Of a stretch of DNA of 64,000 bases, positions 30,236 to 47,241 are shown in pieces. A program made the position numbers and the translations under genes. This stretch comes from Rhodococcoides kroppenstedtii (lineage in GTDB: Bacteria > Actinomycetota > Actinomycetes > Mycobacteriales > Mycobacteriaceae). The notes beneath the pieces were generated by a model that saw nothing but the letters and a program-made list of their open reading frames with translations, was not told where the DNA came from and did no database searches. The stretch spans positions 1 to 64,000 of the forward strand of contig NZ_FOJN01000011.1 in the NCBI RefSeq assembly GCF_900111805.1. Direction: 5' to 3'. Every line of letters begins with the position of its first letter. The first letter of the stretch is position 1.

Positions 30236-31042
30236 ATGACAGCAGTCGATCTCACCGGGCGGACCGCCGTCGTCACCGGCGGCGCCACCCTGCTCGGGCG
30301 GGGCGTGGTCGCCGCCCTCGCCGAATCGGGTGCCACCGTCGTGATCGCCGACATCGACGACGAGAACGGCGAGCACGCGGCGGCGGAGGCCGGTGAGTCG
30401 GTGACGTTCCGGCACCTCGACGTCACCGACGACGCGGCGGTGACGGCGTTCATCGGCGCCGTCGTCGATGCGCACGGAGGACTCGACATCGTGGTCAACC
30501 TCGCCGCCGTCTACCTCGACGACGGGTTCGCCACCCCGCGGGCCGACTGGTTGACCGCCCTCGACATCAACGTGGTGTCCATGGTCGCGCTGGTCCAGGC
30601 CGCCCACCCGCACCTGGCGGCCTCACCGCACGCCGCCGTCGTCAACTTCACGTCGATCTCGAGTTCGGTCGCGCAGACCGGGCGCTGGGTCTATCCCGCG
30701 TGCAAGGCCGCGATCGCGCAGCTCACCCGCTCGATGGCCATGGATCTCGCCCCCGACGGCATCCGCGTCAACTCGGTCAGCCCCGGGTGGACGTGGTCGG
30801 CGATCATGGACGGCCTCTCGGGCGGCGACCGCGCGAAGACCGACCGCGTGGCCGCACCTTTCCATCTGACCGGGCGCGTGGGCGATCCGCGGGAAGTCGG
30901 CAACGTCGTCGCCTTCCTCGCCTCCGACGCCGCCTCCGTCGTCACGGGGGCCGACTGGGCCGCCGACGGCGGCTACTCCGCCATGGGCCCGGAACGTGCC
31001 GTGCCCGCCATTCCCCAACTCGCCGAACAGGATCCCGCATGA
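30236..31042 (+). CDS. Short-chain dehydrogenase/reductase (SDR)
   Basis: A 268-residue classical SDR that oxidises or reduces an alcohol/carbonyl with NAD(P). It has the nucleotide motif TGGATLLGRG, the NNAG-equivalent VNLAAVY, Ser in NFTSISSSVAQTG and the catalytic YPACK. The C-terminus is ASDAASVVTGADWAADGGYS. First gene of a tightly coupled plus-strand operon (4-base overlap with the FMO). In an indole-type pathway it could dehydrogenate a dihydrodiol or hydroxy-oxindole; this is inference. Confidence 0.93.
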   Translation: MTAVDLTGRTAVVTGGATLLGRGVVAALAESGATVVIADIDDENGEHAAAEAGESVTFRHLDVTDDAAVTAFIGAVVDAHGGLDIVVNLAAVYLDDGFATPRADWLTALDINVVSMVALVQAAHPHLAASPHAAVVNFTSISSSVAQTGRWVYPACKAAIAQLTRSMAMDLAPDGIRVNSVSPGWTWSAIMDGLSGGDRAKTDRVAAPFHLTGRVGDPREVGNVVAFLASDAASVVTGADWAADGGYSAMGPERAVPAIPQLAEQDPA

Positions 31043-32532
31043 CCACCACACCTCGACTGCTCGTCGGCGTCGTCGGCGCCGGTTTCGCCGGCCTGTCCTC
31101 CGCGCGCGTCCTCTCCGAGCTCGGCCACGACGTCGTCGTCTGGGAGAAGGCCCCCGACGTCGGCGGCGTGTGGAGCGCCACCCGCCGCTACCCGGGTCTG
31201 AAGACCCAGAACAACAAGGGCACCTACGCCCTGTCCGAGATGCCGATGCCGAAGCACTACCCGGAATGGCCCTCTGGAGAACAGGTTCAGGCCTACCTCG
31301 AGGACTACGCCCGGAAGTTCGGCATCCTCTCCGCCGTCGAGTGCGACACCGAGGTGGTCTCCGCAACCCCCGCGGCGACCGGCGGCTGGGACGTGACGAC
31401 GGCGAGCGAGAGAGGCAGCGACACACGCCACGTCGACCACCTCGTGCTCGCCAGCGGCATCTTCTCCGAGCCGTTCGTCCCGCCGTTCGAGGGCCGGGAG
31501 GACTTCCTCGCCGCCGGCGGCGAGATCATGCCCGCGGGCGATCTTCACCACCTCGATCAGGTGGCCGGCAAGCACGCGATGGTGGTGGGCTACGGGAAGT
31601 CCGCCTGCGACATCACCGTCGAGGTCGCCGGCGTCGCCGCGTCGACCACCGTCGTCGCCCGCGAGCTGCTGTGGAAGCTCCCCCGCAAGATCAAGGGCGT
31701 CCTGAACTACAAGTACCTCATGCTCACTCGACTCGGCGAAGGCATCTTCCGGTACCACACCGTCAGCGGGGTGGAGCGCCTGCTGCACGCGCGGAACTCC
31801 CTGATCGCCGGCGGCATGGTCGACAGCGTGGGCTCGGTGACCACCAAGCAGTTGCAGCTCGAGAAGCTCGGCCTGATACCTCTGGGCACGTTCGCCGACA
31901 TCGCCCGCGCCACTGTGTCGTTGGTCAGCGAGGGCTTCTTCGAGGGCGTCGCCGACGGGCGCATCGACGTTCGTCGTGACACCACCGTCATTCGACTGCT
32001 CGAGAAGGACGGACACCCGCACGCCGAACTCTCCGACGGCTCGGTGATCCGCACCGACGTGATCCTGGCCGCGACGGGGTGGCGCCAGACCATCCCGTTC
32101 CTGCCGGACGAGGTGTTGAACCGGTTCACCGACGAGCGTGGCGATTACGTGCTCTACCGCCAGATCCATCCGGTGGGGGTGGAGGATCTGAGCTTCGCCG
32201 GCTACAACTCGTCGTTCTTCTCCCCGCTGTCCGCCGAGGTGTCGGCGCTGTGGATCGGCTCCTTGCTCGGCGGCAACCACACCTTGCCGAGCGACGACGA
32301 CATGCGTCAGCAGGTGGCCACCCGTCTCCGGTGGATGCGCGAACGCACTCGTGGGAACCACGCGCGTGGCACCAACGTCATTCCGTTCTCCGTGCACAAC
32401 ATCGACGAGACGCTGTCCGACATCGGCCTCGGTGTCTCGCGGCTGACCAAGGCGAAGGAATGGCTCCTGCCGGTGAACCCGAGTGACTACCGTGACATCG
32501 TGCAGAAGCTGAAGAAGCGAGTGCGGCGGTGA
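31039..32532 (+). CDS. Flavin-containing monooxygenase-like protein
   Basis: A 497-residue flavoprotein. FAD is bound by GVVGAGFAGLSSARVL and EKAPDVGGVW, and NADPH by VVGYGKSACD near 195. The sequence PGLKTQNNKGTYALSEMPMP and LAATGWRQTIPFLP fit class B flavoprotein monooxygenases (FMO/BVMO). The exact FxGxxxHxxxW fingerprint is not present; a degenerate form reads GDLHHLDQVAGKH. It should insert one oxygen atom into the pathway substrate. The ATG overlaps the SDR stop. Confidence 0.9.
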   Translation: MTTTPRLLVGVVGAGFAGLSSARVLSELGHDVVVWEKAPDVGGVWSATRRYPGLKTQNNKGTYALSEMPMPKHYPEWPSGEQVQAYLEDYARKFGILSAVECDTEVVSATPAATGGWDVTTASERGSDTRHVDHLVLASGIFSEPFVPPFEGREDFLAAGGEIMPAGDLHHLDQVAGKHAMVVGYGKSACDITVEVAGVAASTTVVARELLWKLPRKIKGVLNYKYLMLTRLGEGIFRYHTVSGVERLLHARNSLIAGGMVDSVGSVTTKQLQLEKLGLIPLGTFADIARATVSLVSEGFFEGVADGRIDVRRDTTVIRLLEKDGHPHAELSDGSVIRTDVILAATGWRQTIPFLPDEVLNRFTDERGDYVLYRQIHPVGVEDLSFAGYNSSFFSPLSAEVSALWIGSLLGGNHTLPSDDDMRQQVATRLRWMRERTRGNHARGTNVIPFSVHNIDETLSDIGLGVSRLTKAKEWLLPVNPSDYRDIVQKLKKRVRR

Positions 32533-34181
32533 CAGCAGCCCGGACCGGTCCCGCGGCGGCGGAGACGGTCGACGCCGTCGTCGTCGGGGCGGGCATCAAC
32601 GGCATGGTCGCCGCCGCGGAACTGGCGGGCGCCGGATGGTCGGTGGCGCTGGTCGACGAGCGAGATCGGTTGGGCGGCTTCGTCGCCTCCGACGAACTGA
32701 CGCTCCCCGGTCACGTCCACGACACCTTCAGCTCCTGGCATCCGCTGTTCGTCACCGGCGGTGCGTACGCGGACCTCGGACCCGATCTGCACCGCCACGG
32801 CCTGGCGTATTCCAACACCGACGGTGCGGTCACCGCCGGGATCTCCGACCGCGGCACGGTGGTGGCCCACCGCGATCCGACGGTGACGGCGCAGTCCTTC
32901 GAGCACGACGACGACCGACGCGCGTACGCCGACATGCTGGCCGAGCTGGAGTCGTGGGCACCGCACGCGTTCGGTGCGCTGGGATCGGAACTGCGGCCGG
33001 TCGACCTGGCCCGGCTCGGCGCCGGCGCAGTGCGCGCGCTCGGACGCGACGGCAGCACGGACTTCGTCCGGGTCGCGCTGCAGAGCGGACGAGGTTACGT
33101 CCGAGAACGGTTCTGCGGCTGGGAAGTCGACCAGTTGTGGTCGCCGTGGCTCCTGCACGCAGGCCTGTCCCCCGATCACGCGACCGGCGGGCTGATGCTG
33201 CCGATCATGGCGTTCAGCATGCACGCCGCCGGCCTCCCGGTGGTCACCGGCGGCGCCGGGGAGTTCACCGCCGCGTTCGGACGGCTGCTCGCCGAGCGGG
33301 GAGTCACCGTGGTCACGGGAGAGCCGGTGTCGCACATCGACGTCGCCGACGGCCGGGCCGTCGGGGTCCGCGTCGGCGACCGCCGCATCGCCGCCCGGCG
33401 GGCCGTGCTCGCGTCGTCCTCCACGCCGCGTCTGTACCAGGAGATGCTGGGTGCCGACATCGCTCCGGCCGCCGGCCGACGCGCCGCGGCGCGCCATCGT
33501 CCCGGCCGGGCCGCGATGCAGATCCACCTCGCGCTCGACCGCCCGGTCGAGTGGACGGATTCCCGCCTTCGGGAGGTTCCGCTGATCCACGTCGGCGACG
33601 GCGCCGGGAGTACCGGAATCGCCTGTGCTCAGGCCGAAGCCGGGCTGCTGCCCGCCGAACCCACCGTGGTGGTCGGTCAGCAGGACGTGCTCGATCCGTC
33701 TCGCAGCCCGGCCGGCGCGGCCACCCTGTGGGTGCAGCTGCAGGAGGTGCCGTGGGCGCCGATCGGCGACGCCGCCGACTCCGTCGCCGCCGACGGGACC
33801 TGGACCGAGACCGTCACCGCCGCCTACATCGACCGGGTTCTGGGCCGCATCGAGCGGTACGCCCCGGGCCTGCGGGACTCGGTGATCGGCAGGACGGTCC
33901 TGACCCCCGCGGACCTGACCGCGGCCAATGCCAATGCCGTCCACGGTGATCCGTACGGCGGCGCGGCCGAGATCGACCAGTCGCTGCTGTGGCGGCCGGG
34001 GACCGGCACCGGGCACCGCACCGGCATCGACGGGCTGTTCCACATCGGGGCGTTCACCCACCCGGGTCCCGGATTGGGCGGGGGCTCCGGCCACCTCGTC
34101 GCCCAGCAGCTGATCGCCCCCTCCCCGACCACCCGCGTCGCCACCCGGCTGCGCGGTCTGACCGAAAGGTTCCGACCATGA
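32529..34181 (+). CDS. Phytoene-desaturase-like FAD oxidoreductase
   Basis: A 550-residue FAD protein with the dinucleotide motif VVVGAGINGMVAAAEL and the flavin-monoamine/CrtI-type follow-up VDERDRLGGFVASDEL. The C-terminus has GLFHIGAFTHPGPGLGGGSG, a conserved FAD-contact region of CrtI-like and NAD(P)/FAD oxidoreductases. Carotenoid genes are absent here, so it more likely dehydrogenates a pathway intermediate. The GTG start overlaps the FMO stop by 4 bases, and the next gene overlaps its stop. Confidence 0.88.
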   Translation: MTAARTGPAAAETVDAVVVGAGINGMVAAAELAGAGWSVALVDERDRLGGFVASDELTLPGHVHDTFSSWHPLFVTGGAYADLGPDLHRHGLAYSNTDGAVTAGISDRGTVVAHRDPTVTAQSFEHDDDRRAYADMLAELESWAPHAFGALGSELRPVDLARLGAGAVRALGRDGSTDFVRVALQSGRGYVRERFCGWEVDQLWSPWLLHAGLSPDHATGGLMLPIMAFSMHAAGLPVVTGGAGEFTAAFGRLLAERGVTVVTGEPVSHIDVADGRAVGVRVGDRRIAARRAVLASSSTPRLYQEMLGADIAPAAGRRAAARHRPGRAAMQIHLALDRPVEWTDSRLREVPLIHVGDGAGSTGIACAQAEAGLLPAEPTVVVGQQDVLDPSRSPAGAATLWVQLQEVPWAPIGDAADSVAADGTWTETVTAAYIDRVLGRIERYAPGLRDSVIGRTVLTPADLTAANANAVHGDPYGGAAEIDQSLLWRPGTGTGHRTGIDGLFHIGAFTHPGPGLGGGSGHLVAQQLIAPSPTTRVATRLRGLTERFRP

Positions 34182-34957
34182 CCACCACCCTGGACAGCCT
34201 GCTCACCGACCTCGCCTCGGGTGCCGTCCACGTCGTCGACCTCACCGCCCCGCTGTCGCCCTCGACGCCGGTCCTGCAGTTGCCGGCGCCGTTCGCGAAC
34301 ACCATCCCGCTCTCCCTCGAACCGGTCAGCAACTTCGACGACGACGGTCCCGGCTGGGGCTGGAACAACATCCACACCGGTGAGCACACGGGAACGCATG
34401 TCGACGCGCCGGCACACTGGGCGACGGGCCGCGACGGACACACCGTCGACACCATTCCGCCCGGCCGATTGGTCGGCCCCGCGGTGGTGCTCGACTTCCG
34501 TGACGAGGTCTCCCGCGATCCCGACTTCCTGCTGGAGCCCGCTCATCTCGACGCGCACGTCGCGGAGCACGGTCCGTTGCCGGACGGCGCCTGGCTGGTC
34601 TTCCGGACCGGCTGGAGCGCCCGCAACCACGACGCCGACGCGTTCCTCAACGCCGACGACTCCGGTCCCCACACCCCCGGCGTCTCCGTGGCGGGCGCCG
34701 AGTGGCTGGCGGCGTCGTCGATCACCGGTTTCGCCGTCGAGACCGTCGGGGTCGACGCCGGCCAGGCGGGCGGCATGGACCCGATGTTCCCGGTGCACTA
34801 CCACCTGCTCGGCGCCGACAAGTACGGCGTGACGCAGCTGCAGAACCTCGACCGTCTGCCCGCCACCGGCGCCGTCCTGGTGGTCTCCCCGCTGCCGATC
34901 GTCGGCGGAACCGGTTCGCCTGCACGCGTTCTCGCGTTCGCGCCGGGGGCGGCGTGA
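34178..34957 (+). CDS. Cyclase-family metal hydrolase (isatin hydrolase / kynurenine formamidase fold)
   Basis: A 259-residue PF04199 protein. The metal-binding signature HTGTHVDAPAH is at 70-80, with HTGEH just before and the second-shell region FAVETVGVDAGQAGG later. Family members open amide bonds: kynurenine formamidase, isatin hydrolase and related enzymes. No kynureninase or tryptophan dioxygenase is nearby, so a kynurenine role is weak. The next gene encodes a benzoylformate-decarboxylase-like ThDP enzyme, which would suit isatinate (2-aminophenylglyoxylate), the product of isatin hydrolase. Coupled by 4-base overlaps on both sides. Confidence 0.9.
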   Translation: MTTTLDSLLTDLASGAVHVVDLTAPLSPSTPVLQLPAPFANTIPLSLEPVSNFDDDGPGWGWNNIHTGEHTGTHVDAPAHWATGRDGHTVDTIPPGRLVGPAVVLDFRDEVSRDPDFLLEPAHLDAHVAEHGPLPDGAWLVFRTGWSARNHDADAFLNADDSGPHTPGVSVAGAEWLAASSITGFAVETVGVDAGQAGGMDPMFPVHYHLLGADKYGVTQLQNLDRLPATGAVLVVSPLPIVGGTGSPARVLAFAPGAA

Positions 34958-36654
34958 GCACCGCGACGACCCCCGCGACGTCGGCCGTGAAGCCCGCCGT
35001 GTCCACCGCCACGGTCGCCGACGTCGTCGCGGAGGTGCTGACCGAGTTGGGGGTCGGCCACGCGTTCGGGGTGGTGGGCAGCGGCAACTTCGCCGTCACC
35101 AACGCCCTCATCGCGCGAGGCGTGCCGTTCACCGCCGCCCGGCACGAGGGCGGCGCGGCGTCGATGGCCGACGGCTACAGTCGCTTCGCCGCCCACCCGG
35201 GCGTTCTCACCCTGCACCAGGGATGCGGATTGACCAACGCCGTCACCGGAATCGGCGAGGCGGCGAAGAGCCGCACACCGATGATCGTGCTCACCGCGGA
35301 CGTGGCGGCGTCGTCACGACTGTCGAACTTCCGCATCGATCAGGACGCGCTGGCCCTGTCGGTGGGTGCGGTGCCCGAGCGCGTGCATTCCGCCGAGACG
35401 GCGGTCGCGGACGTCACCCGGGCCTGGCAGACCGCCGTGCACGGACGCCGCACCGTCGTGGTGAGCCTGCCGCTCGACGTGCAGGCGGCACCGGCCCCGG
35501 CGTCGACGACGGTGCGCCGACCCGTCGCCCCCGCCCCGGTGCGGCCCGCGGAGTCGGCCGTCCGGGAATTCGCCCGGCTGATCGCGGAGTCGGAACGACC
35601 GGTCTTCGTCGCCGGCCGCGGCGGGCGGAACGCGGGAGACGAGATCGCCGCGCTGGCCGATCACGTCGGCGCGCTCGTGGCCACGTCGGCCGTCGCGAAC
35701 GGCCTGTTCCGCGGGCACGAGTTCGATCTCGGCATCTCGGGCGGGTTCTCCGCGCCGCTGACGGCCGAGCTGATCTCGAACGCCGACCTGATCGTGGGGT
35801 GGGGGTGCGCGCTGAACATGTGGACGATGCGGCACGGATCGCTCATCGGGACGAACACGGCGGTGGTGCAGATCGACGACACCGCCGAGGTTCTCGGTGC
35901 GCACCGCCCGGTGACGCTCGGCATCCACGGGGACTGCCGGACGACGGCCGTCGACGTTCTGGCTGCCGTCGGCGACACCGCGCGGCGCTATCGGACCCCG
36001 GAGGTATCGGCTCGCCTCGCGGAACGACGCTGGTGGAACGACACCCCCACCGAGGACCTGTCCACCGCGGACACGATCGACCCGCGCGTGTTCTCGGCCG
36101 AGTTGGACCGGCTGCTGCCGGCCGAGCGCCTGGTCGCGATCGACTCGGGCAATTTCATGGGGTACCCGTCGACCTACCTGCGCGTGCCCGATCACCACTC
36201 GTTCTGCTTCACGCAGGCCTTCCAGTCGATCGGGCTGGGGCTGGCCAGCGGGCTCGGCGCGGCGCTCACCCGTCCCGACCGGCTGCCCGTGATCGGCACC
36301 GGTGACGGCGGGTTCCTCATGGGAATCGCCGAGCTCGAGACCGCGGTGCGGCTGGGCACCCCGCTGGTGATCGCGGTGTACGACGACGCCGCGTACGGCG
36401 CCGAGGTCCACCACTTCGCCGGGCCCGAGCACGCCGACGACGACGTCGACCTGTCGACCGTCACGTTCTCGGACGTCGACCTCGCCGCGGTGGCGCGCGG
36501 CTACGGCGCCACGGGCGTCACCGTGCGGACGACGGCCGACCTCGCCGCGGTGGCCGCATGGCTGCAGTCCCCGCAGGGTGTCCTGGTGATCGACGCGAAG
36601 ATCGCGCCGGACGGCGGCGCCTGGTGGCTCGCGGAGGCGTTCCGAGGGCACTGA
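34954..36654 (+). CDS. Thiamine-diphosphate-dependent enzyme (2-oxo acid decarboxylase/lyase type)
   Basis: A 566-residue ThDP enzyme of the acetolactate synthase/benzoylformate decarboxylase family. The activating Glu65 is in ARHEGGAASMADG, the central domain spans about 195-330, and the ThDP-Mg motif begins GTGDGGFLMG near 450. The usual Asn-Asn at the motif end reads Asp-Asp (AVYDDAAYG), with a Mg ligand still possible. It should cleave next to a 2-keto group, and 2-aminophenylglyoxylate is a tempting substrate given the preceding cyclase. GTG at 34954 overlaps the cyclase stop. Confidence 0.9.
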   Translation: MSTATTPATSAVKPAVSTATVADVVAEVLTELGVGHAFGVVGSGNFAVTNALIARGVPFTAARHEGGAASMADGYSRFAAHPGVLTLHQGCGLTNAVTGIGEAAKSRTPMIVLTADVAASSRLSNFRIDQDALALSVGAVPERVHSAETAVADVTRAWQTAVHGRRTVVVSLPLDVQAAPAPASTTVRRPVAPAPVRPAESAVREFARLIAESERPVFVAGRGGRNAGDEIAALADHVGALVATSAVANGLFRGHEFDLGISGGFSAPLTAELISNADLIVGWGCALNMWTMRHGSLIGTNTAVVQIDDTAEVLGAHRPVTLGIHGDCRTTAVDVLAAVGDTARRYRTPEVSARLAERRWWNDTPTEDLSTADTIDPRVFSAELDRLLPAERLVAIDSGNFMGYPSTYLRVPDHHSFCFTQAFQSIGLGLASGLGAALTRPDRLPVIGTGDGGFLMGIAELETAVRLGTPLVIAVYDDAAYGAEVHHFAGPEHADDDVDLSTVTFSDVDLAAVARGYGATGVTVRTTADLAAVAAWLQSPQGVLVIDAKIAPDGGAWWLAEAFRGH

Positions 36655-36675
36655 CCACGCGCTGTATGACAGTTT

Positions 36676-36717
36676 TTCGACGATCGAAACATCGACGCAA
36701 CAGTCGCTTGGTATGAT
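36676..36717 (+). promoter_or_regulatory. Promoter and dyad before the AraC regulator
   Basis: An extended -10 (TGGTATGAT, 36709-36717) gives a well-formed promoter for the regulator gene. Upstream is the perfect dyad TTCGA-cga-TCGAA at 36676-36688, then ACGCAACAG at 36695, which recurs as ACGCAATAG at 44414 in the divergent Rid/FAH gap. The dyad and repeat are candidate binding sites for the AraC protein. The ribosome site GGGAGG lies just before the ATG at 36751. Confidence 0.5.
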
Positions 36718-36750
36718 CGGGGTCACACTCGAGTGGATCGAGGGAGGACC

Positions 36751-37704
36751 ATGACCACGCTGCTGCGTCGCCACCCGGTGCTGGCCACGACCGATCTGGA
36801 CGAGGCCCGCACCTCCGTCGGCGAAACCTTCTGTCCGCACGGTCTCACCGTCACCGACCGACGCGGCGCCTTGTCGCTCGTGCACAACGCCGCGTCGGTC
36901 GGCTGCATTGGTATCAACTACCTCCGCTACGGCGACGAGGTCCGCATCACCCCGGGCACCTTCGGCTCGTTCTACCTCGTCCAGATCCCGCTCGGCGGTC
37001 GCGCTCGGGTGCGCGTCGGCGACACCGACGTGGTGTCGGACCGACGGTTCGCGTCCCTTCCCTCGCCCACCCTGCCCGTCGACATGGTGTGGTCCGCCGA
37101 TTGCGAGCAACTCCTGGTTCACATTCCGCGCGACGCCGTGCAGTCCGCGGCCGGCACGGACGAACCGGTGGTCTTCCACCCGCTGGTGGATCTGGCCGCG
37201 CCGACGGTGGCGAGCTGGATGCGATTGGTGCGCTACGCCTGCGACGAGGTGGACAGCGAATCGGGGCTGCTGCACTCACCCCTGGCCGCCCGACATTTCG
37301 AGCAGGTGATGGTCGGCGGCTTGCTGGCCGCTCAGCCCAACACCAGCACGCACGGGCCGCGAGCGGAGGAGACCGTGGTGACCTCGCGGGCGGTCCGGCA
37401 CACCCTGTTCCTCATCGAGGAGCATCCCGAGAAGTCGTGGCGCGTCGCCGATCTGGCCGCCGAAGCGGGGGTGAGCGCCCGGACGCTCCAGGCGTCCTTC
37501 CATCGGGAGCGCGGCACCACCCCGCTCGAGGAGCTGCGCCGCGTCCGGCTGGCCAGAGCCCACGAGGACCTCGTCGCCGGCGGACCCGGCGCGGAGAGCG
37601 TCACCGAGGTCGCGGCACGGTGGGGCTTCTTCCACCTCGGCCGGTTCTCGCAGGCCTACCGGGCCGAGTTCGGCGAAAGCCCCTCGCGCACACTGGCGAG
37701 CTGA
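36751..37704 (+). CDS. AraC-family transcriptional regulator
   Basis: A 317-residue activator with an N-terminal AraC-like ligand-binding domain (about 20-190; YLRYGDEVRITPGTFGSFYL) and a C-terminal double helix-turn-helix (about 215-315: WRVADLAAEAGVSARTLQAS, then WGFFHLGRFSQAYRAEFGES). The domain layout matches regulators of aromatic catabolism. It sits between the plus operon and the facing minus operon and probably responds to a pathway aromatic acid. ATG at 36751 is chosen for its GGGAGG site; a GTG at 36733 is in frame. The 3' end overlaps the thioesterase by 49 bases. Confidence 0.92.
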   Translation: MTTLLRRHPVLATTDLDEARTSVGETFCPHGLTVTDRRGALSLVHNAASVGCIGINYLRYGDEVRITPGTFGSFYLVQIPLGGRARVRVGDTDVVSDRRFASLPSPTLPVDMVWSADCEQLLVHIPRDAVQSAAGTDEPVVFHPLVDLAAPTVASWMRLVRYACDEVDSESGLLHSPLAARHFEQVMVGGLLAAQPNTSTHGPRAEETVVTSRAVRHTLFLIEEHPEKSWRVADLAAEAGVSARTLQASFHRERGTTPLEELRRVRLARAHEDLVAGGPGAESVTEVAARWGFFHLGRFSQAYRAEFGESPSRTLAS

Positions 37705-38099
37705 CCGCCGAAGCGTTCCGCCCACTCGGGCGGCCAGGCGCACGCCTGCCCGGTGGACCGATCGATGTGCACCACGACGTAGGAGCCCCGGGCGGCAACC
37801 ACGGCCTCGCGGCCGTCGAACGCCGCACCCCGCACGGTGAAGTCGAATCGCAGGGACGACGATCCGACGCGGGCGACGGAGAGCTCCGTGGTCACCTCCT
37901 GCCCGAAATACAGCGGGGCGAGAAAGTCGACCTCGTACCGCACCCGCGGCACCCGCGGGAAATACACCGAGCCGAGGCCCCACTCGCGAACGAGTGCGGC
38001 CTCGGCGGATTCGACGAATCGAACGACGGTGCTGTTGTGGTAGATCCCGGCGGCGTCGGTGTCCATCCACTCGACTCGGGACCGGTAGGAGAACGTCAC
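37656..38099 (-). CDS. 4-hydroxybenzoyl-CoA-type (hot-dog) thioesterase
   Basis: A 147-residue hot-dog fold thioesterase. The motif EWMDTDAAGIYHNSTVVRF holds the catalytic Asp of the 4HBT group. It should hydrolyse an aryl-CoA made by the ligase/hydroxylase genes upstream, for example releasing gentisate or 5-hydroxyanthranilate, or recycling dead-end CoA esters. It is the last gene of the minus operon, 9 bases after the hydroxylase stop. Its 3' end overlaps the AraC gene by 49 bases, a long convergent overlap. Confidence 0.9.
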   Translation of the reverse strand: MTFSYRSRVEWMDTDAAGIYHNSTVVRFVESAEAALVREWGLGSVYFPRVPRVRYEVDFLAPLYFGQEVTTELSVARVGSSSLRFDFTVRGAAFDGREAVVAARGSYVVVHIDRSTGQACAWPPEWAERFGGQLASVREGLSPNSAR

Positions 38100-38108
38100 G
38101 GCACGTTC

Positions 38109-40520
38109 CTACCCGACGGGGACGGCCGTTCGCTCCTCGGCCACCGTGTGCTCCCCGGCCACCGTGCGGTCCGGGGTCCACCGCACGTGCGTCGTGTCGT
38201 CGGCACCGTCTCGCAGCAGCGACAGCCGCGGGGGCACCTTGTCGGTGCGCGACGTCGGCGGCCGGCGCCGGCCCGCCTTCCACGGCAGCGGCCACGACGC
38301 ACCCGCCCCCGTCCAGTCCTGTTCGGCCGCCGCGTGCAGCGTCCAGTTGGGGTCGTAGAGATGCGTCCGCCCCAGGGCACAGAAGTCGGCGCGACCCGCC
38401 AGGAGAATGGAATTGACGTCGTCGTACGACGAGATCGCCCCGACGGCGATCACCGCCACGCCCGCCTGCGCGGCCACCTCGTGGCGGATCCGATCCGCGA
38501 ACGGCGTCTGGTACGAGCGTCCGAACGCGGGCGTCTCGTGCTTGATCACCTGACCGGTGGAGACGTCGATCGCGGCGGCGCCGTGCGCGACGAACGCCCG
38601 CGCGATCTCCACGGCGTCGGTGACGGTGTTGCCGTCCGGCGCCCAGTCCGTCGCGGACACGCGGACCGTCACCGGGATCGACGACGGGACCGCGGCGCGG
38701 ACTGCGTCGAACACCTCGAGCGGGAAGCGGAGTCGATTCTCCAGCGACCCACCGTAGGAGTCGGTGCGGTGGTTGGCGATCGGCGAGAGGAACGACGACA
38801 GCAGGTAGCCGTGCGCCGCGTGCACCTCGATCAGATCGAAGCCGGCCGCGACGGCCCGCTCGGCCGTGGCGACGAAGTCCCGCACCACGGCGTCGAGATC
38901 GGCACGCGTGGCCTCCCGCGGCACGTGGCACCCGTCGCCGTAGGGCAGAGCGGACGGGCCGATCACCTCCCAGTTGCCGTCCTCGAGCGGCTGGTCGATG
39001 CCGTCCCACATGAGCTTGGTCGAGCCCTTGCGGCCCGAATGTCCGATCTGCACACCGATCTTCGCGGCGCTGTTCTCGTGGACGAAGCGCGTCACCCGCG
39101 CCCACGCGTCCCGCTGCTCGTCGGTCCAGAGGCCGGGGCACCCGGGGGTGATGCGTCCCTCGGGCGAGACGCAGGTCATCTCCGTCATCACCAGTCCCGC
39201 GCCGCCGAGCGCCTTCGAGCCCAGGTGCACCAGGTGGAAATCGGACGGCACACCGTCCGTCGCGACGTACATGTCCATGGGCGAGAGCACGATCCGGTTC
39301 GCCAGCTCGAGCTCGCCGATCCGGCCCGGGACGAACATGGCGGGGGCGGACGCGACTCCGTTTCCGGCCGCGAACCGCGACTGGACCAGCGCCGCGAAGT
39401 CCGCGTCCCGCTCCCGCAGGTTGTCGAACGTGATGCGGCGTGAGCGCGTCAGCAGGTTGAAGACGAATTCCGTGTCCGCCTGATCGGCGTACAGGCCGAT
39501 GTTCTCGAACCACTCGAGCGACGCCTGCGCCGCGCGCTGCGTGCTCTCGACGACCGGTTTGCGCTCCTCCTGGTAGGCGGCGAGCGCGGTCTCGATGTCG
39601 GCGTGCTCGTGGACGCACGCCGCCAGGGCCAGGGCGTCCTCCATCGCGAGCTTCGTCCCGGAGCCGATGGAGAAGTGCGCGGTGTGGGCGGCGTCGCCAA
39701 GCAGCACGACGTTGCCGTCGAACCACCGCTCGTTGCGCACCGTGTGGAAGTTCAGCCACTTCGAGTTGTTGGTCAGAATCTCGTGGCCGTCCAGCGTGTC
39801 GGCGAAGATCTCACGGATGCGCTCGACCGCGTACTCGTCGGAGACCCCGGGCGGGAAGTGCTCGTGCTCGGTGCGATCCAGACCCGCACGGCGCCAGACG
39901 TCCTCGTGCATCTCCACGATGAACGTGGAGCCCTGGTCGGAGTACGGGTACCCGTGGATCTGCATGGTGCCGAACTCGGTGTGGGCGACGATGAACTGGA
40001 ACGCCTCGAACACCTTGTCGGTGCCGAACCAGATGTACTTGTTGTTCCGGCGGTCGAGGGTGGGCCGGAAGACGTCCTCGTACCGCGTGCGGACCGCGGA
40101 GTTCAGTCCGTCGGAAGCGATCACCAGATCGTAGGTCCGCCGCAGCGTGTCCGGATCCGGTGCCTCCGTCGAATACTGCACGGTGACACCGAGATCGGCG
40201 ACCCGCCGCTGCAGTACCTTCAGCAGTTCCTTGCGGCTCATCGCGGCGAAACCCTGGCCGCCGACGGTGTAGGACCGGCCGTCGACCTCGACGTCGATAT
40301 CGGTCCATCGAGCGAAGAGTCGCTCCATCTCGTCGTGGACCACCGAGTCCGCGCCCTCGATGCTGCCGAGCGTCTCGTCCGAGAACACGACGCCGAAGCC
40401 GAAAGTGTCGTCGGGAGCGTTGCGCTCCCACACGTCGATGCGGTGGGTGGGGTCGAGCTGCTTGGCGAGAGCGGCGAAGTAGAGCCCACCGGGCCCGCCG
40501 CCGACGATGGCGATCCTCAT
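38109..40520 (-). CDS. Bifunctional aryl-CoA hydroxylase / old-yellow-enzyme fusion (salicylyl-CoA 5-hydroxylase or 2-aminobenzoyl-CoA monooxygenase/reductase type)
   Basis: An 803-residue fusion of two flavoenzymes. Residues 1 to about 390 are a PHBH-like FAD monooxygenase with IVGGGPGGLYFAALA, IASDGLNSAVR and GDAAHTAHFSIGSG. Residues from about 392 are an FMN old-yellow-enzyme domain with RIVLSPMDMYVA, QIGHSGRKG, EVHAAHGYLLSSFLSP and SYGGSLENR. Proteins of this layout are the salicylyl-CoA 5-hydroxylase (SdgC-type) and the 2-aminobenzoyl-CoA monooxygenase/reductase of Azoarcus evansii, which hydroxylates and then dearomatises the ring. The ATG overlaps the ligase stop by 4 bases. Which aryl-CoA is used cannot be read from sequence. 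Confidence 0.93.
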   Translation of the reverse strand: MRIAIVGGGPGGLYFAALAKQLDPTHRIDVWERNAPDDTFGFGVVFSDETLGSIEGADSVVHDEMERLFARWTDIDVEVDGRSYTVGGQGFAAMSRKELLKVLQRRVADLGVTVQYSTEAPDPDTLRRTYDLVIASDGLNSAVRTRYEDVFRPTLDRRNNKYIWFGTDKVFEAFQFIVAHTEFGTMQIHGYPYSDQGSTFIVEMHEDVWRRAGLDRTEHEHFPPGVSDEYAVERIREIFADTLDGHEILTNNSKWLNFHTVRNERWFDGNVVLLGDAAHTAHFSIGSGTKLAMEDALALAACVHEHADIETALAAYQEERKPVVESTQRAAQASLEWFENIGLYADQADTEFVFNLLTRSRRITFDNLRERDADFAALVQSRFAAGNGVASAPAMFVPGRIGELELANRIVLSPMDMYVATDGVPSDFHLVHLGSKALGGAGLVMTEMTCVSPEGRITPGCPGLWTDEQRDAWARVTRFVHENSAAKIGVQIGHSGRKGSTKLMWDGIDQPLEDGNWEVIGPSALPYGDGCHVPREATRADLDAVVRDFVATAERAVAAGFDLIEVHAAHGYLLSSFLSPIANHRTDSYGGSLENRLRFPLEVFDAVRAAVPSSIPVTVRVSATDWAPDGNTVTDAVEIARAFVAHGAAAIDVSTGQVIKHETPAFGRSYQTPFADRIRHEVAAQAGVAVIAVGAISSYDDVNSILLAGRADFCALGRTHLYDPNWTLHAAAEQDWTGAGASWPLPWKAGRRRPPTSRTDKVPPRLSLLRDGADDTTHVRWTPDRTVAGEHTVAEERTAVPVG

Positions 40521-42232
40521 GACCGTGCCTCCTGGTCCGCCGGCGCCTCGAGGGCCTGCCGGAGCTTGAAGTGTTGGAGTTTGCCGCTCGAATTGCGCGG
40601 CAGGGTGTCGACGAAGCGAATCCGGCGCGGGTACTTGTACGGCGCCAGTTCGGCTTTCACGTGATCCTGGATGGACCGCACCGTCTCCTCGGTGCCCGAT
40701 ACGCCGTCGCGCAGGACGACGAAGGCACTGACGATCGATCCGCGATCCGGGTCCGGCTCGCCCACGACGGCCGCTTCCATCACCGCCGGATGGCCTTCGA
40801 TGCAGGCCTCCACCTCGGGTGCGCCGATGTTGTACCCGGACGAGACGATCATCGAATCGGTACGGGCGCAGTAGAAGTAGTACCCGTCCTCGTCGCGATA
40901 GAACGTGTCCCCGGTGATGTTCCACCCGTTCTCGACGCGCTCGAACTGACGGTCGTCGGCGAGGTACCGGCACCCGACGGGCCCGATCACCGCGAGCCGA
41001 CCGGGCGTTCCGTCCGGCACCGGCTCGCCGTCGTCGCCCAGGATCGACGCGCGGTACCCGGGCAGCGGCTTGCCGGTGGAGCCGGGGCGAGGCGCGTCGG
41101 CCGCCGCCGTCGACAGGAAGATATGCAGCAGTTCGGTGGCCCCGATGCCGTCGATCACCTCGAGGCCGATCTCGTCGCGGATCCGGGTCCACACGCCGGT
41201 GGGGATGTGCTCGCCGGCGCTGACGGCGACGCGCAGGCCGGCCAGCCTGGACAATCTGTCGGCCTTGATGATCTGACGGTAAGCGGTGGGCGCGGTGGCC
41301 AGCACCGTGACCTTCTCCGACTCCACCAGATCGGCGAGAGCCGGCGGGGTGACGGCGTCGGTCAGCAACGCGCACGCCCCCGCACGCAACGGGAAGACGA
41401 CCAACATGCCGAGGCCGAAGGTGAACGCGAACGGCGCGGTGCAGGCCACCACGTCGTCGCTGCGCAAGCGCAGACCCCGAGCCCCGAACGTGGCGTCGAT
41501 GGCCAGGACGTCGCGATGGAAGTGCATGCAGAACTTCGGCGTTCCGGTGCTGCCGGACGTCGGGGCGAGCAGGGCGACGTCGTCCGCCGCCGTCTCGACC
41601 GGCACGAAACCCGTGGGCTTACTCGCCGCTCGGGCCACCAGATCGTCGGCGTCCGGTCCACCGACCGGCACCACCACCAGATCGGGAGCGGAGTCGTCAC
41701 GCACCGTCCGGACGTCGTCGACCGCCCGGTGGTCCACCAGTGCCACCGTGGGGCGCGTCTTCTCGACGATCGGCCCGAGCTCACGCGCTCGAAGGGCGCT
41801 CATGACCACGACGGCGACGCCGCCGGCTTCGAGCACCGCCAGCCAACAGGCCACGGCCAGAGGGGTGTTAGAAGATCGGAGGAGAACGCGGTTGCCGGGC
41901 TGCAGGTTCAGGTCCTCGGTGAGCACCCGCGCGATCCGATGGGTGTGGTCACGCAGGTCGCCGAGTGTCCACGCGATGCCGTCGGGAGTCCGCAGGGCCG
42001 GGCGGTCCGCACCGAAGCGCTCCACGGCGCGCTCGATCAGTTCCGCCCCGGCGTTGAGCCGATCCGGGAACTGCAGCTCGGGCGTGGTGAATTCGAGCGT
42101 CGGCCACAGCTCGGCGGGGGGCAGGTTGTCGCGAGCGAAGGTGTCGACGTACGCGCTCGGCGACAGCGCGTCGGGGCCGGTGGTCCCGGTGGGAACGGTC
42201 ACTGTCGGGTCGGTAGCGATGTCCGTGCTCAT
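40517..42232 (-). CDS. Aryl-CoA ligase (2-aminobenzoate/benzoate-CoA ligase type)
   Basis: A 571-residue adenylate-forming ligase. The N-terminal region (YVDTFARDNLPPAELWP) is characteristic of the benzoate/2-aminobenzoate-CoA ligase group. ATP is bound by the P-loop APTSGSTGTPKF near 224; A-domain motifs include DGIGATELLHIF and WNITGDTFY; the catalytic Lys is in PRNSSGKLQHF near the C-terminus. It activates an aromatic acid to the CoA ester used by the fused hydroxylase encoded next. ATG at 42232 is one base after the TesB stop. Confidence 0.93.
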   Translation of the reverse strand: MSTDIATDPTVTVPTGTTGPDALSPSAYVDTFARDNLPPAELWPTLEFTTPELQFPDRLNAGAELIERAVERFGADRPALRTPDGIAWTLGDLRDHTHRIARVLTEDLNLQPGNRVLLRSSNTPLAVACWLAVLEAGGVAVVVMSALRARELGPIVEKTRPTVALVDHRAVDDVRTVRDDSAPDLVVVPVGGPDADDLVARAASKPTGFVPVETAADDVALLAPTSGSTGTPKFCMHFHRDVLAIDATFGARGLRLRSDDVVACTAPFAFTFGLGMLVVFPLRAGACALLTDAVTPPALADLVESEKVTVLATAPTAYRQIIKADRLSRLAGLRVAVSAGEHIPTGVWTRIRDEIGLEVIDGIGATELLHIFLSTAAADAPRPGSTGKPLPGYRASILGDDGEPVPDGTPGRLAVIGPVGCRYLADDRQFERVENGWNITGDTFYRDEDGYYFYCARTDSMIVSSGYNIGAPEVEACIEGHPAVMEAAVVGEPDPDRGSIVSAFVVLRDGVSGTEETVRSIQDHVKAELAPYKYPRRIRFVDTLPRNSSGKLQHFKLRQALEAPADQEARS

Positions 42233-42233
42233 G

Positions 42234-43190
42234 TCACGGCTCCTTCCGAGTCGGGTCGATCATGCCTTCCTGGACGACAGTGGCCAGGTGAATACCGTCC
42301 GGGGTGAAGAATCGTCCGAGTCCGACACCGCGACCGGCGTCGGCGGACAGGGCCTCCTGCGTGTAGAGCAGCCACCCGTCGAGATCGCCGGGGGCGGGAG
42401 CGCGGTGGAACCACATGGCGTGGTCGAGGCTGGCGGTGACCAGACCCGGCTCGGCCCACGGATGACCGAGAGCGCGCAGGACGGGCTCGAGAATCGTGTA
42501 GTCGCAGGCGTACGCCAGGGCCGCGACGTCGCGCTGCGCGTCGGTCAGGCCCGGCACCGGACGCAGTGCGTCGAACGGACGAATCCACAACGCCTGGTGC
42601 GGATCCCGTCCCCCGTCGACCTCGAGGTAGATCGGCCCGGGCACGTGGCGCATGTCGACCCCGCGCCCGCCGCTCCAGTACTGCTTGCTCACCTCGGTCA
42701 TCGACGCGTCGTGGGTCACGGGGCGGTCCGCGAGGTACTGCGCGGACGACGGGAGGTCGTCGGGAGACGGGAGGTCCACGGGGGCGACGCTCGCCGTCGA
42801 GCCGCTCTCGCCGCCGGCGGCGAACGAGGCCAGCGCCAGATACGCCGTCTTACCGTTCTGCAGTGCCCGCACCTGCCGCGTGGCGAATCGCCGTCCGTCG
42901 CGCACGATCTCGACGTCGTAGTGCACCGGTGCCCCGATGTCGACCGGGCGCAGGAAGTACGAGTGCATGGAGTGCAGCGTCTTGCCGTCGGTGACCGAGC
43001 GGAGCGCCGCCGCGGCTGCGGCCGCGACCATGTCGCCGCCGTACGCCTTGGGCCACGGGCACGGTTGCGTCACCGCGGTGAACGCCAGATCCGCCGCGAC
43101 CGGGTCCGCCGGCGTCAGGGTGATGGCGTCGGTGACGACGGCGGAGGTCGGGGTGGTCCCGGTGACGAGCGGGCCGCTCACGGTGGTCAC
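42234..43190 (-). CDS. TesB-like acyl-CoA thioesterase II
   Basis: A 318-residue double hot-dog thioesterase. Landmarks are KAYGGDMVAAAAAAALRSV, LHSMHSYFLRPVDIGAPVHY, and near the end SLDHAMWFHRAPAPGDLDGW, the standard TesB ending. It releases CoA from medium or unusual acyl-CoAs. A second, unrelated thioesterase ends the same operon, so each may act at a different step. GTG at 43190 overlaps the cupin stop by 4 bases (GTGA). Confidence 0.93.
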   Translation of the reverse strand: MTTVSGPLVTGTTPTSAVVTDAITLTPADPVAADLAFTAVTQPCPWPKAYGGDMVAAAAAAALRSVTDGKTLHSMHSYFLRPVDIGAPVHYDVEIVRDGRRFATRQVRALQNGKTAYLALASFAAGGESGSTASVAPVDLPSPDDLPSSAQYLADRPVTHDASMTEVSKQYWSGGRGVDMRHVPGPIYLEVDGGRDPHQALWIRPFDALRPVPGLTDAQRDVAALAYACDYTILEPVLRALGHPWAEPGLVTASLDHAMWFHRAPAPGDLDGWLLYTQEALSADAGRGVGLGRFFTPDGIHLATVVQEGMIDPTRKEP

Positions 43191-43669
43191 GGCCGGTCCA
43201 GCCAGTTCGGCAGCGACTCGTCGGCGACGGCGGGGAGGTTCACCACGATGTTGTCGGGGGTGCGGGTGGTGAGCCAGTGCAGCGGCTCGGTGCGGGAAAG
43301 GTTGCATTCGATGTGGGGCATGAAGGGCGGCACGAAGACCCAGTCGCCTTCGTCCATGTCGATGTAGTCCTGGTAGTCCTCGCCGAAGTAGATGCGGGCG
43401 CGGCCCGAGAGGACGTAGCCGCCGGTCTCGGCCTCACCGTGGTGGTGGGCGAGGGAGCGGTAGCCCGGCTCGTTGCTGACCTTGCCGTACCAGATCTTGG
43501 TGGCGGGGGTGTGCTGCGGGCCGACGCCGGAGATGCGCGTCGCGCCCTCCGTCTGACCGGTGCGGCCGTCCTCCTCGCCGGCACGGGTGACGACGGGAAT
43601 CACGCGCCCACCTTCGCTCGCGTACATCGAGTTGTCGCCCTCGAGGATGTAGTAGGTCTGTGCGGTCAT
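43187..43669 (-). CDS. Single-domain cupin protein, possible ring-cleaving or isomerising enzyme
   Basis: A 160-residue cupin. Motif 1 holds H75, H76 and H77 with E79/E81 (LAHHHGEAETGGYVLSG), and motif 2 is GDWVFVPPFMPHIECN with H119. The metal set is intact, so a catalytic iron or manganese protein is possible. It is far shorter than gentisate 1,2-dioxygenase (about 350 residues, two cupins). In this operon it is the only visible candidate for a ring-opening dioxygenase. ATG at 43669 overlaps the FAH stop (ATGA). Confidence 0.88.
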   Translation of the reverse strand: MTAQTYYILEGDNSMYASEGGRVIPVVTRAGEEDGRTGQTEGATRISGVGPQHTPATKIWYGKVSNEPGYRSLAHHHGEAETGGYVLSGRARIYFGEDYQDYIDMDEGDWVFVPPFMPHIECNLSRTEPLHWLTTRTPDNIVVNLPAVADESLPNWLDRP

Positions 43670-44349
43670 GGCTGGTCTCCTTCGGTCGGCGAATTCTGTC
43701 GGGTGGTGCGAATGACGTTGCGGAGCAGTCCGATCCCTTCGATCTCCGTCTCGAGGACGTCGCCGTCGGCGAGCCAGCGGGCCGGGTCGCGGGACATGCC
43801 CACGCCGCCCGGCGTGCCGGTGAGGATCAGATCCCCCGGCCGCAGCACGGTGAAGGTCGAGGCGTACGCGAGGAGATCGGCACTGTCGAAGACGAGGGTC
43901 TTCGTCGAATCCCGTTGCACCTCCTCACCGTTGACCCGGCAGGTGATGGTCAGGCCGGCGGCGGGATCGACTTCGTCGGGAGTGGCGACGACGGGCCCGA
44001 CGGGCGTGGTCGCGTCCCAGGCCTTGCCCTGGAACCACTGGAGGGTGCGTCGCTGCCAGTCACGCATCGAGATGTCGTTGGCCACGGTGTATCCGAGGAT
44101 CGCGGCCTCGGCCTCGGCCCGGGAGGCATGCCGAATCGGTCGGCCGACCACCACGGCGAGCTCGGCCTCCCAGTCCACCTGCGCGTCGTCCGGCACGACG
44201 ATGTCGTCCGTCGGGCCGATCAGCGTGTCGGCGAACTTCGCGAACAGGGTGGGGTACTGCGGGCGATCGCGGCCGGTCTCGGCGATGTGGTCGCCGTAGT
44301 TCAGGCCGCAGCAGATCACCTTGGTGGGAGTCGGGACCGGCAGCGTCAT
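43666..44349 (-). CDS. Fumarylacetoacetate hydrolase family protein
   Basis: A 227-residue FAH-fold hydrolase. Metal ligands are in VDWEAELAVVVGR and ANDISMRDWQRR, and LTGTPGGVGMSRDP closes the active site region. Such enzymes split C-C bonds of diketo acids, for example fumarylpyruvate in the gentisate route, or decarboxylate/hydrate related acids. Here it would act after ring opening. ATG at 44349 is preceded by GGGAGA; it is the first gene of the minus operon. Confidence 0.93.
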   Translation of the reverse strand: MTLPVPTPTKVICCGLNYGDHIAETGRDRPQYPTLFAKFADTLIGPTDDIVVPDDAQVDWEAELAVVVGRPIRHASRAEAEAAILGYTVANDISMRDWQRRTLQWFQGKAWDATTPVGPVVATPDEVDPAAGLTITCRVNGEEVQRDSTKTLVFDSADLLAYASTFTVLRPGDLILTGTPGGVGMSRDPARWLADGDVLETEIEGIGLLRNVIRTTRQNSPTEGDQP

Positions 44350-44469
44350 GGCGTCTCCCGGTCGATGGGGTCGCGGCGGTTCATGTAGCGAGTTTTGCAC
44401 GACCGTCGCAAGTACGCAATAGATCGGTTAGGCTCGATCCGACGGCACCCACCGAGACGAAGGATCGAC
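44350..44469. promoter_or_regulatory. Divergent promoter region of the FAH operon and the Rid gene
   Basis: This 120-base gap must drive both directions. TTGC-acgaccgtc-GCAA (44395-44411) is a spaced dyad, followed by a further GCAA. TAGGCT (44429-44434) is a possible plus-strand -10. The string ACGCAATAG at 44414 resembles ACGCAACAG before the AraC gene. These make it a likely AraC target, unproven. Confidence 0.4.
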
Positions 44470-44889
44470 ATGACGCACCTGCCCGTGAACCCCGCCGCCC
44501 TTCCCGCCCCCAGCGGCTACTCGCACGGCACCCTCGCCGGCAACACCCTCTACCTGGGCGGTCAGACGGCGCTGGACAAGGACATGCGCATCGTTCCCGG
44601 CGGCATCGTCGAGCAGTTCCGGCAGGCGTTCGGCAACGTCCTCACCACGCTCGCCGAGGCGGGCGGACAGCCCGAGGACCTCGTCAGCATCACGATCTTC
44701 CTCACCGACATCCCCGATTACCAGGCGCACGGCCGGGAGATCGGACGCGTGTGGCGGGAGCTCGCCGGCCCCGTCTACCCCGCGATGGCGGGCATCGGCA
44801 CCACGGGGCTGTGGCAGCCCGAGGCCCTGATCGAGATCATGGGCACCGCCGTCATTCCCGAGGAGCGGCTGCAGCGGCCCAGCAGCTGA
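44470..44889 (+). CDS. Rid family protein (RidA-like) lacking the usual Arg
   Basis: A 139-residue YjgF/Rid fold protein beginning PVNPAALPAPSGYSHGTLAG with LYLGGQTALD and EDLVSITIFLTDI. True RidA deaminases have a catalytic Arg in a PARS-type motif; here the matching stretch reads YPAMAGIGTTGLWQPEALIE, so the Arg is absent. It is thus probably a different Rid subfamily member. Linkage to an amino-aromatic pathway would make sense for handling enamine/imine intermediates. ATG at 44470 has AAGGA nearby. Confidence 0.88.
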   Translation: MTHLPVNPAALPAPSGYSHGTLAGNTLYLGGQTALDKDMRIVPGGIVEQFRQAFGNVLTTLAEAGGQPEDLVSITIFLTDIPDYQAHGREIGRVWRELAGPVYPAMAGIGTTGLWQPEALIEIMGTAVIPEERLQRPSS

Positions 44890-46232: not shown

Positions 46233-46309
46233 ACGACGCGGCAGGCGGCGAGACGACGCGCCCGCCCGGTGAGGTACATACCATCACCCTGCAATCCCTG
46301 AAAGTCGGT

Positions 46310-46619: not shown

Positions 46620-46633
46620 CGAGGAGAAAGCTC

Positions 46634-47223: not shown

Positions 47224-47241
47224 AGCTGGACACGGCCGGGG

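Follow-up and report, generated by a model that had tools for sequence, protein, structure and literature searches.

Within the 64,000-nucleotide window analysed here (positions 1 to 64,000 of contig NZ_FOJN01000011.1 from the 4.08 Mb genome of Rhodococcoides kroppenstedtii), thirteen neighbouring genes at positions 30236-44889 form an island that probably serves the aerobic degradation of indole, or of a close 2,3-unsubstituted indole, to anthranilate and onward via coenzyme A (CoA) thioesters. Our reading draws on gene content, homology, conservation and the way in which individual genes are replaced in other lineages. A plus-strand operon encodes a short-chain dehydrogenase/reductase (SDR), a flavin monooxygenase (FMO), a second FAD-dependent oxidoreductase (FAD2), a PF04199 cyclase, a thiamine diphosphate (ThDP)-dependent enzyme and an AraC-family regulator. 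It faces a minus-strand operon for a fumarylacetoacetate hydrolase (FAH)-family protein, a cupin, a TesB-type thioesterase, an aryl-CoA ligase, a fusion of a hydroxylase with an old yellow enzyme (OYE)-like reductase and a 4HBT-fold thioesterase, next to which a divergent Rid gene is located (Table 1). An original prediction had described this arrangement from the DNA itself, and all genes that it named were found in their places with Pfam and NCBIfam family calls that agree.

Along the proposed route, the FMO would oxygenate indole at C2/C3, the SDR and FAD2 would convert the oxygenated indole to dioxindole and isatin, and the cyclase would open isatin to isatinate (2-aminophenylglyoxylate). 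The ThDP enzyme would release CO2 from isatinate to form 2-aminobenzaldehyde or, if it is oxidative like pyruvate oxidase, anthranilate directly. The ligase would then activate anthranilate to 2-aminobenzoyl-CoA as the substrate of the fusion, a putative 2-aminobenzoyl-CoA monooxygenase/reductase, followed by hydrolysis of the enamine to cyclohexanedione-carboxyl-CoA through Rid and ring opening by the FAH-family protein, while the TesB and 4HBT thioesterases and the cupin may have finishing or repair functions. We infer indole as the starting point as well as the roles of FAD2 and the cupin, and the steps given to the SDR and FAD2, placed by their position and by analogy to the iif scheme of Acinetobacter, are the weakest of the route.

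An isatin-hydrolase-like cyclase

A phmmer search of the PDB with the cyclase returned the isatin hydrolases 5nmp, 4j0n, 5nnb and 5nna as the top four matches, all of them full length (259 bits across residues 3-254 for 5nmp), and its identity to isatin hydrolases amounts to 48-50%. We aligned it with three isatin hydrolases from the PDB and 78 clade proteins, i.e., the protein of the window itself, 73 from the set of 80 loci described below and four from other loci. The window cyclase holds all six residues that form the manganese ligands and the Asp-His-His triad (H69/H73/D75, H79, D193 and H207 in the numbering of LaIHA), of which H207 is kept in 77 and the others in all 78 clade members. 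It also carries the aromatic pocket motif WXW/FXW (as WGW, residues 60-62), which was published as an isatin hydrolase motif together with GLQC/GLAS (PMC6117287). Based on these sequence features, we propose that the PF04199 protein functions like isatin hydrolase. The position of the second pocket tryptophan (W61 of LaIHA, residue 62 of the cyclase) is divided within the clade into 40 proteins with His and 38 with Trp, which perhaps reflects two specificities.

ThDP-dependent enzymes beside the cyclase

To follow the ThDP enzyme across bacteria, we used one genome per species (84,980 species) and chose the best 80 loci of 506 stretches encoding some relative, all of them actinobacterial by title. 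The cyclase lies within 500 bp of the ThDP gene in 76 of these 80 loci, with both genes on the same strand in 70 of the 76, compared to a background of five other genes matched by three ThDP-type queries among the 1437 predicted genes of the 80 loci. Since this sample had been drawn with the ThDP enzyme, a second count was begun from the cyclase, which is present in 28 of 296 genomes of the phylum at 29 loci (the window's own included). Within flanks of up to 1.5 kb, a ThDP enzyme accompanies it at 25 of the 29 loci, at 19 as an enzyme of the window's kind and at six as a split pair of short genes matching the alpha and beta parts of sulfopyruvate decarboxylase (TIGR03845 and TIGR03846, below cut-off; one of the six loci was scanned for families, and the other five pairs are 70-81% identical to it).

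A third kind of enzyme occupies the same place on plasmid 13 of Tsukamurella tyrosinosolvens, which encodes the SDR, FMO, FAD2, cyclase and lower operon with subunits of indolepyruvate:ferredoxin oxidoreductase beside the cyclase, and with no match to the ThDP enzyme of the window within 40 kb. Genome G640 is not independent of this case because its oxidoreductase subunits are 96-98% identical. Among plasmids, 57 records have a match to the cyclase, from which 11 further loci were picked by hand. Alpha and beta subunits of indolepyruvate oxidoreductase lie next to the cyclase or within about 3 kb of it in two Paracoccus records, Tritonibacter and Novosphingobium, and a Caballeronia plasmid has the beta subunit about 8 kb from the cyclase with the fusion in between. 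Starting from the ThDP enzyme, we examined four of the eight plasmid records with a match: The cyclase gene lies directly next to it in Deinococcus and R. erythropolis R138 and at a distance of about 4 kb in Agrobacterium, and none was seen near the match in Bosea. That a single kind of cyclase is accompanied by three different ThDP-dependent 2-oxoacid enzymes suggests that its product is a 2-oxoacid, as isatinate is, and this gene neighbourhood suggests that isatinate is the substrate of the enzymes in the neighbouring slot.

The ThDP enzyme itself scores 143.8 bits with the benzoylformate decarboxylase family NF005485, under the cut-off of 493, and a search of the host's own genome for this family found none at 1e-60, which carries little weight, as the cut-off of the family is not passed in any control genome either. 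Its residues S43, E65 and H88 are invariant in an alignment of 34 sequences (without benzoylformate decarboxylase) with spacings of 22 and 23, and the active site of benzoylformate decarboxylase is described as Ser26, Glu47 and His70 with spacings of 21 and 23 (PMC6028569). We see roughly even chances that the ThDP enzyme fills the gap as isatinate decarboxylase, perhaps by an oxidative reaction, and that isatin catabolism is modular, with the cyclase as a constant element around which oxygenases (FMO, IndA, luciferase-like or P450) and decarboxylating enzymes (single-chain ThDP enzyme, split pair or indolepyruvate:ferredoxin oxidoreductase) are swapped between lineages.

As a separate observation, six Nocardia loci (L071, L072, L073, L079, L097 and L107) have a gene resembling mycothiol-dependent maleylpyruvate isomerase close to the cyclase-ThDP pair, with the MDMPI_N domain scanned in L073 only.

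Different enzymes in the oxygenase slot

The original prediction had the route begin with oxidation of an N-heteroaromatic compound to isatin and continue through isatinate and its decarboxylation to CoA activation, ring hydroxylation or dearomatisation and ring cleavage, an order that is largely borne out by replacements in the oxygenase and decarboxylase slots and by a lower operon linked to anthranilate. Proteins like IndA1 and/or IndA2B (at least 40% identity) stand in place of the window FMO in 16 of the 80 loci, with a Smoa_sbd domain and a fused flavin reductase in the one IndA pair that was scanned. An FMO of the window's type occurs in three loci and a luciferase-like monooxygenase in four, one of them together with the FMO, and 58 loci hold none of these three oxygenases in the stretch. 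FAD2 is present in all 19 loci with IndA or FMO, and the window has no match to IndA1 or IndA2B at E 1e-5. The SDRs in IndA or FMO clusters of other genera are 56-71% identical to that of the window, an AraC regulator with 35-38% identity diverges from the SDR gene in the 15 IndA loci examined, and an Azospirillum plasmid shows the gene order AraC, SDR, IndA, flavin reductase, transporter, FAD2 and cyclase. The name indole monooxygenases has been given to the group E2 enzymes, whose clusters are described as containing an SDR along with genes that probably serve the turnover of anthranilate and indolepyruvate (PMC6165268). FMOs able to oxidise indole are also known from bacteria (PMC6962290), and the FMO in the IndA slot is therefore most plausibly a different indole oxygenase.

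In another genome of the genus (G308), FAD2, cyclase, ThDP enzyme and lower operon are retained, and genes for a P450 and a 4Fe-4S ferredoxin lie past FAD2 (L155, 14804-16425); its SDR, FMO and AraC genes were not found in the stretches read. A luciferase-like monooxygenase is encoded near the cyclase-ThDP pair at L062, L075, L101 (with a flavin reductase) and L047 (8162-9178), with domains scanned in L047 and L101 and the remainder assigned by clustering, and is possibly another oxygenase for the same route.

These exchanges bear on whether indole itself is the natural start. The core of the isatin route could be as proposed while the FMO acts on another indole such as indole-3-acetate, skatole, oxindole or a plant- or tryptophan-derived compound, which we consider rather unlikely. 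It would agree with the known iad loci, in which Rieske enzymes for indole-3-acetate are encoded together with an isatin-hydrolase-like cyclase (PMC9613470, PMC12633357), with the many cyclase-ThDP loci that have no recognised indole oxygenase and with the luciferase-like and P450 oxygenases near the module. However, the FMO replaces IndA1/IndA2B, which belong to a family assigned to the indole monooxygenases (PMC6165268), and SDR and FAD2 stay the same in this exchange. No Rieske enzyme, thiolase or other side-chain enzyme was found among the thirteen genes by Pfam.

A minus-strand operon of the pAL1 type

Judged by homology, the minus-strand operon is an anthranilate CoA-thioester operon of the type carried by plasmid pAL1 (pARUE113) of Arthrobacter sp. 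Rue61a, with which it shares Rid, FAH, cupin, TesB, ligase and fusion as well as PaaX-type regulators. The fusion is 69% identical to the pAL1 protein and the ligase 59% identical to the one encoded beside it, which by its place is the gene assayed in PMC3534580. According to this study, Rue61a has anthranilate-CoA ligase activity and forms anthraniloyl-CoA, and acids of the formulae C7H7NO3 and C7H8O4 are reported as CoA esters from anthranilate-grown cells only. Anthraniloyl-CoA was unexpectedly not seen in cells grown on 1H-4-oxoquinaldine, and a plasmid-free mutant still grew on anthranilate, presumably through paralogues (PMC3534580). The pAL1 operon is fed by quinaldine degradation, whereas that of the window would be fed by the isatin module. 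Elsewhere, the lower operon has aqdC close by in R. erythropolis BG43 and kynU in Arthrobacter sp. ERGS1:01 (in which FAH and TesB lack annotation but show partial matches), and these neighbours are all sources of anthranilate.

The set drawn with the ThDP enzyme, plasmid records and a search of the phylum together yielded 51 loci that hold the fusion, a non-random sample in which several loci end at contig edges. In 22 of these, two or more of FAH, cupin and TesB are present, and 23 carry one or more beta-oxidation genes like those of Ruegeria; no locus falls into both groups and six fall into neither. Rid lies in the same stretch in 44. Rid, together with an enamine reported as the enzyme product and the C7H8O4 ester, points to hydrolysis to cyclohexanedione-carboxyl-CoA followed by FAH-type ring opening, in what would be the order of steps.

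The original prediction had left the ligase and fusion to either 2-aminobenzoyl-CoA or salicylyl-CoA, and the pAL1 operon favours the former. That the lower operon instead takes salicylate through salicylyl-CoA to gentisyl-CoA, with a thioesterase, ring cleavage by the cupin and FAH to follow, appears very improbable to us. The fusion does bear the NCBIfam name salicylyl-CoA 5-hydroxylase/oxidoreductase (NF006101), and FAH, cupin and thioesterases can be read as a gentisate branch. However, the homologous operon is tied to anthranilate in a host that is reported not to grow on salicylate, gentisate or 5-hydroxyanthranilate (PMC3534580), its neighbours in other genomes make anthranilate, and a tryptophan-dioxygenase-like gene is near the fusion in three of 20 loci. 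The frequent company of Rid and fusion also fits an amino substrate. The cupin has only 160 residues, with an HHH...E and PH metal-site motif conserved in 19 sequences, and a role as gentisate or 5-hydroxyanthranilate dioxygenase found no NCBIfam match and only weak PDB matches to cupins of the oxalate decarboxylase type.

A different combination is present on plasmid pSBC1_4 of Caballeronia sp. SBC1 (L225, 1-9744), where indolepyruvate oxidoreductase beta, a thioesterase, the fusion, a cupin of 375 residues, FAH and an isatin-hydrolase-like cyclase are encoded together. These genes are candidates for a gentisate-type branch from isatinate or anthranilate, the genes of which PMC6221969 describes as unrevealed.

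The two operons probably belong together

A search for the island in the same genus found all thirteen genes in one stretch in four of 36 other genomes (those searched for the FMO). Upper and lower modules are joined in seven of the 80 loci, from Rhodococcoides, Rhodococcus, Sinomonas, Arthrobacter, Paeniglutamicibacter and Williamsia, in differing arrangements. Because synteny is kept and the modules recur together in different arrangements, we rejected chance neighbourhood as an explanation for the complete island. Five loci from other classes of the phylum (L133, L134, L135, L137 and L138) bring together ThDP enzyme, cyclase, ligase, fusion, acyl-CoA dehydrogenase, SDR, enoyl-CoA hydratase and Rid in several orders. 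The fusion is present in 14 of the 28 genomes with the cyclase, compared to 40 of 396 genomes sampled across the phylum, cyclase-bearing ones among them (uncorrected for relatedness). Seven of the 14 have both genes at one locus, and the other seven have them on different contigs or far apart.

These joint occurrences speak against the idea that the plus-strand operon makes or detoxifies something else and merely neighbours a minus-strand operon devoted to tryptophan-derived anthranilate, which we regard as improbable. For it, one can cite the many cyclase-ThDP loci without the lower operon, the absence of IndA and FMO from ten of the 17 lower-operon loci among the 80, and a kynureninase-like gene elsewhere in the host genome (38% identity). 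Through this last gene, anthranilate may come from tryptophan as well.

Evidence at odds with the proposed route

Several observations weigh against indole degradation through isatin as proposed here. The cyclase lacks the GLQC/GLAS motif, reading GVTQ at residues 217-220, and 77 of the 78 clade cyclases have Thr at the position of Gln219; we therefore call it isatin-hydrolase-like and do not file it as an isatin hydrolase. The association of the two central genes also has exceptions, with four of the 80 ThDP loci lacking the cyclase (L063, L069, L105 and L118), four of the 29 cyclase loci having neither of the two decarboxylases within flanks of up to 1.5 kb, and six of the 11 hand-picked plasmid cyclase loci without an enzyme of the ThDP type in the stretch read (Roseibium, Sulfitobacter, Azospirillum, Ruegeria, Shinella and Sagittula, the last two judged by annotation only). 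In 47 of the 80 loci, the cyclase-ThDP module stands without a recognised oxygenase, FAD2 or lower module in the stretch, and the pair is therefore not tied to indole and must have further uses.

For the ThDP enzyme, structural comparison ends in a tie between pyruvate oxidase, HKA synthase and acetohydroxyacid synthase, and two reference proteins of aldehyde dehydrogenase found no match in the window and matches in just four of the 80 loci, which fits poorly with a simple decarboxylase that yields an aldehyde. Either a distant aldehyde dehydrogenase gene serves or the ThDP enzyme is oxidative, and the structural comparison permits both. The best PDB matches of the FMO are remote (137 bits). 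In Variovorax, nine iad genes restore anthranilate formation from indole-3-acetate, none of them named as a ThDP enzyme in the available text of PMC12633357, and a dedicated decarboxylase is therefore not always needed. This preprint moves the indole-3-acetate route away from some earlier intermediates and gives the masses C8H7NO3 and C7H7NO as likely intermediates (PMC12633357), which would fit isatinate and 2-aminobenzaldehyde, names that we have assigned here.

Organisation of the island and its surroundings

All thirteen genes were recovered by a gene finder trained on the codon usage of the island. Of the twelve gene junctions, seven are same-direction overlaps of 4 bases, among them those that link the plus operon's five enzyme genes, and the minus operon is just as tight except at two junctions with gaps of 1 base and 9 bases. 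Among the island proteins, an NCBIfam equivalog cut-off is exceeded by the fusion alone and a subfamily cut-off by the SDR; the cupin matches no NCBIfam family, and the others score below their cut-offs. A scan for promoters and terminators revealed nothing exceeding chance.

The nearest named relative that we saw is Rhodococcoides corynebacterioides BP-281 (91.5% DNA identity over 16.9 kb). A PaaX-type regulator directly adjoins Rid in R. corynebacterioides (L046 and L154, on one contig). In the window, a 4.8-kb insert of small genes, one with DUF6924, occupies positions 44880-49677 between Rid and this regulator, which is thus displaced from the operon.

Table 1. Genes of the island and the nearby PaaX-type regulator, with proposed functions (window coordinates).
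Feature	Position	Strand	Support or remark
SDR, proposed dehydrogenase of oxygenated indole (to 3-hydroxyindolin-2-one level)	30236..31042	+	NF006121 subfamily, 385 bits (cut-off 294)
FMO-like flavin monooxygenase, proposed indole oxygenase	31039..32532	+	PF00743; place of IndA1/IndA2B in Arthrobacter-type clusters
FAD2, CrtO/phytoene-desaturase-like FAD oxidoreductase, proposed dioxindole-to-isatin oxidase or dehydrogenase	32529..34181	+	
PF04199 cyclase, isatin-hydrolase-like, proposed to convert isatin to isatinate	34178..34957	+	PF04199, 140 bits (cut-off 23)
ThDP-dependent enzyme, proposed isatinate decarboxylase (oxidative or not)	34954..36654	+	TPP_enzyme N/M/C domains
AraC-family regulator, AndR-like	about 36751..37704	+	NF041686 AndR, 178 bits (below cut-off 350)
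4HBT-fold thioesterase	37656..38099	-	PF13279
Hydroxylase/OYE fusion, proposed 2-aminobenzoyl-CoA monooxygenase/reductase	38109..40520	-	NF006101, 1194.7 bits (cut-off 1078)
Aryl-CoA ligase, proposed anthranilate-CoA ligase	40517..42232	-	TIGR02262, 330 bits (below cut-off 375)
TesB-type acyl-CoA thioesterase	42234..43190	-	PF13622, PF20789, PF02551
Single-domain cupin	43187..43669	-	PF07883
FAH-family hydrolase, proposed ring-opening C-C hydrolase	43666..44349 (gene-finder start) or 44400	-	PF01557, 236 bits
Rid-family protein, divergent, proposed enamine hydrolase for fusion product	44470..44889	+	PF01042
PaaX-type regulator, outside the island	49674..50588	-	PF07848/PF20803/PF08223

Discussion

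The individual modules of the island are mostly known, and its novelty would lie in their combination, in the FMO variant and in a decarboxylase that joins isatinate to anthranilate. The aerobic 2-aminobenzoate pathway of Azoarcus evansii presumably shares the ligase and the monooxygenase/reductase fusion with the window, and we take it to continue with beta-oxidation genes where the window has FAH, TesB and cupin instead.

With the IndA1/IndA2B clusters of Rhodococcus opacus 1CP and the iif cluster of Acinetobacter, the island has in common an SDR beside a flavin monooxygenase and the logic of leading from indole to anthranilate, and an AraC-type regulator is present in related loci. It differs in encoding a class B FMO and no group E (StyA/IndA) monooxygenase. 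The cofactor-independent oxygenase resembling dienelactone hydrolase that is described for these clusters (PMC6165268, PMC6221969) is absent from the thirteen genes, which have the cyclase and ThDP enzyme in its stead. The iad locus of Variovorax and Bradyrhizobium, with iad-like loci in Roseibium, Sulfitobacter and Ruegeria, resembles the island in its isatin-hydrolase-like cyclase and in isatinate and anthranilate as reported intermediates. However, it encodes a Rieske oxygenase together with a ligase and a thiolase for the side chain of indole-3-acetate, whereas the thirteen genes include no Rieske domain (IadDE). The iad-like loci of Roseibium, Sulfitobacter and Ruegeria showed no ThDP-type match within 9 kb of the cyclase. 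On a plasmid of Paracoccus saliphilus (L230, 1-11027), a Rieske oxygenase and a PDR reductase, both of the iad kind, lie near the cyclase and indolepyruvate oxidoreductase alpha/beta, which possibly links indole-3-acetate degradation to the latter enzyme.

The original prediction had suggested that the route may be undescribed, a label that fits less well given that the lower operon (PMC3534580), the clusters of indole monooxygenase and SDR (PMC6165268) and isatin hydrolase (PMC6117287) are all described. An isatinate decarboxylase, the FMO variant or the full gene set was not found in the literature that we searched, mostly without subscription papers such as a 2019 article on group E monooxygenases and indigoid dyes, and an earlier proposal may exist. 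The accessible text of two papers on indole-3-acetate degradation assigns no enzyme between isatinate and anthranilate (PMC12633357, PMC8383072), and the cyclase-ThDP pair is a directly testable candidate for this step. It has been treated as an open question whether aerobic indole degradation really proceeds through isatin (PMC6221969). If the ThDP enzyme is an isatinate decarboxylase in such a modular pathway, isatin would be a genuine step in the breakdown of indole by these bacteria rather than a by-product, the island would offer enzymes for the removal of indole and isatin, and it would represent an indole cluster that manages without a styrene-type monooxygenase.

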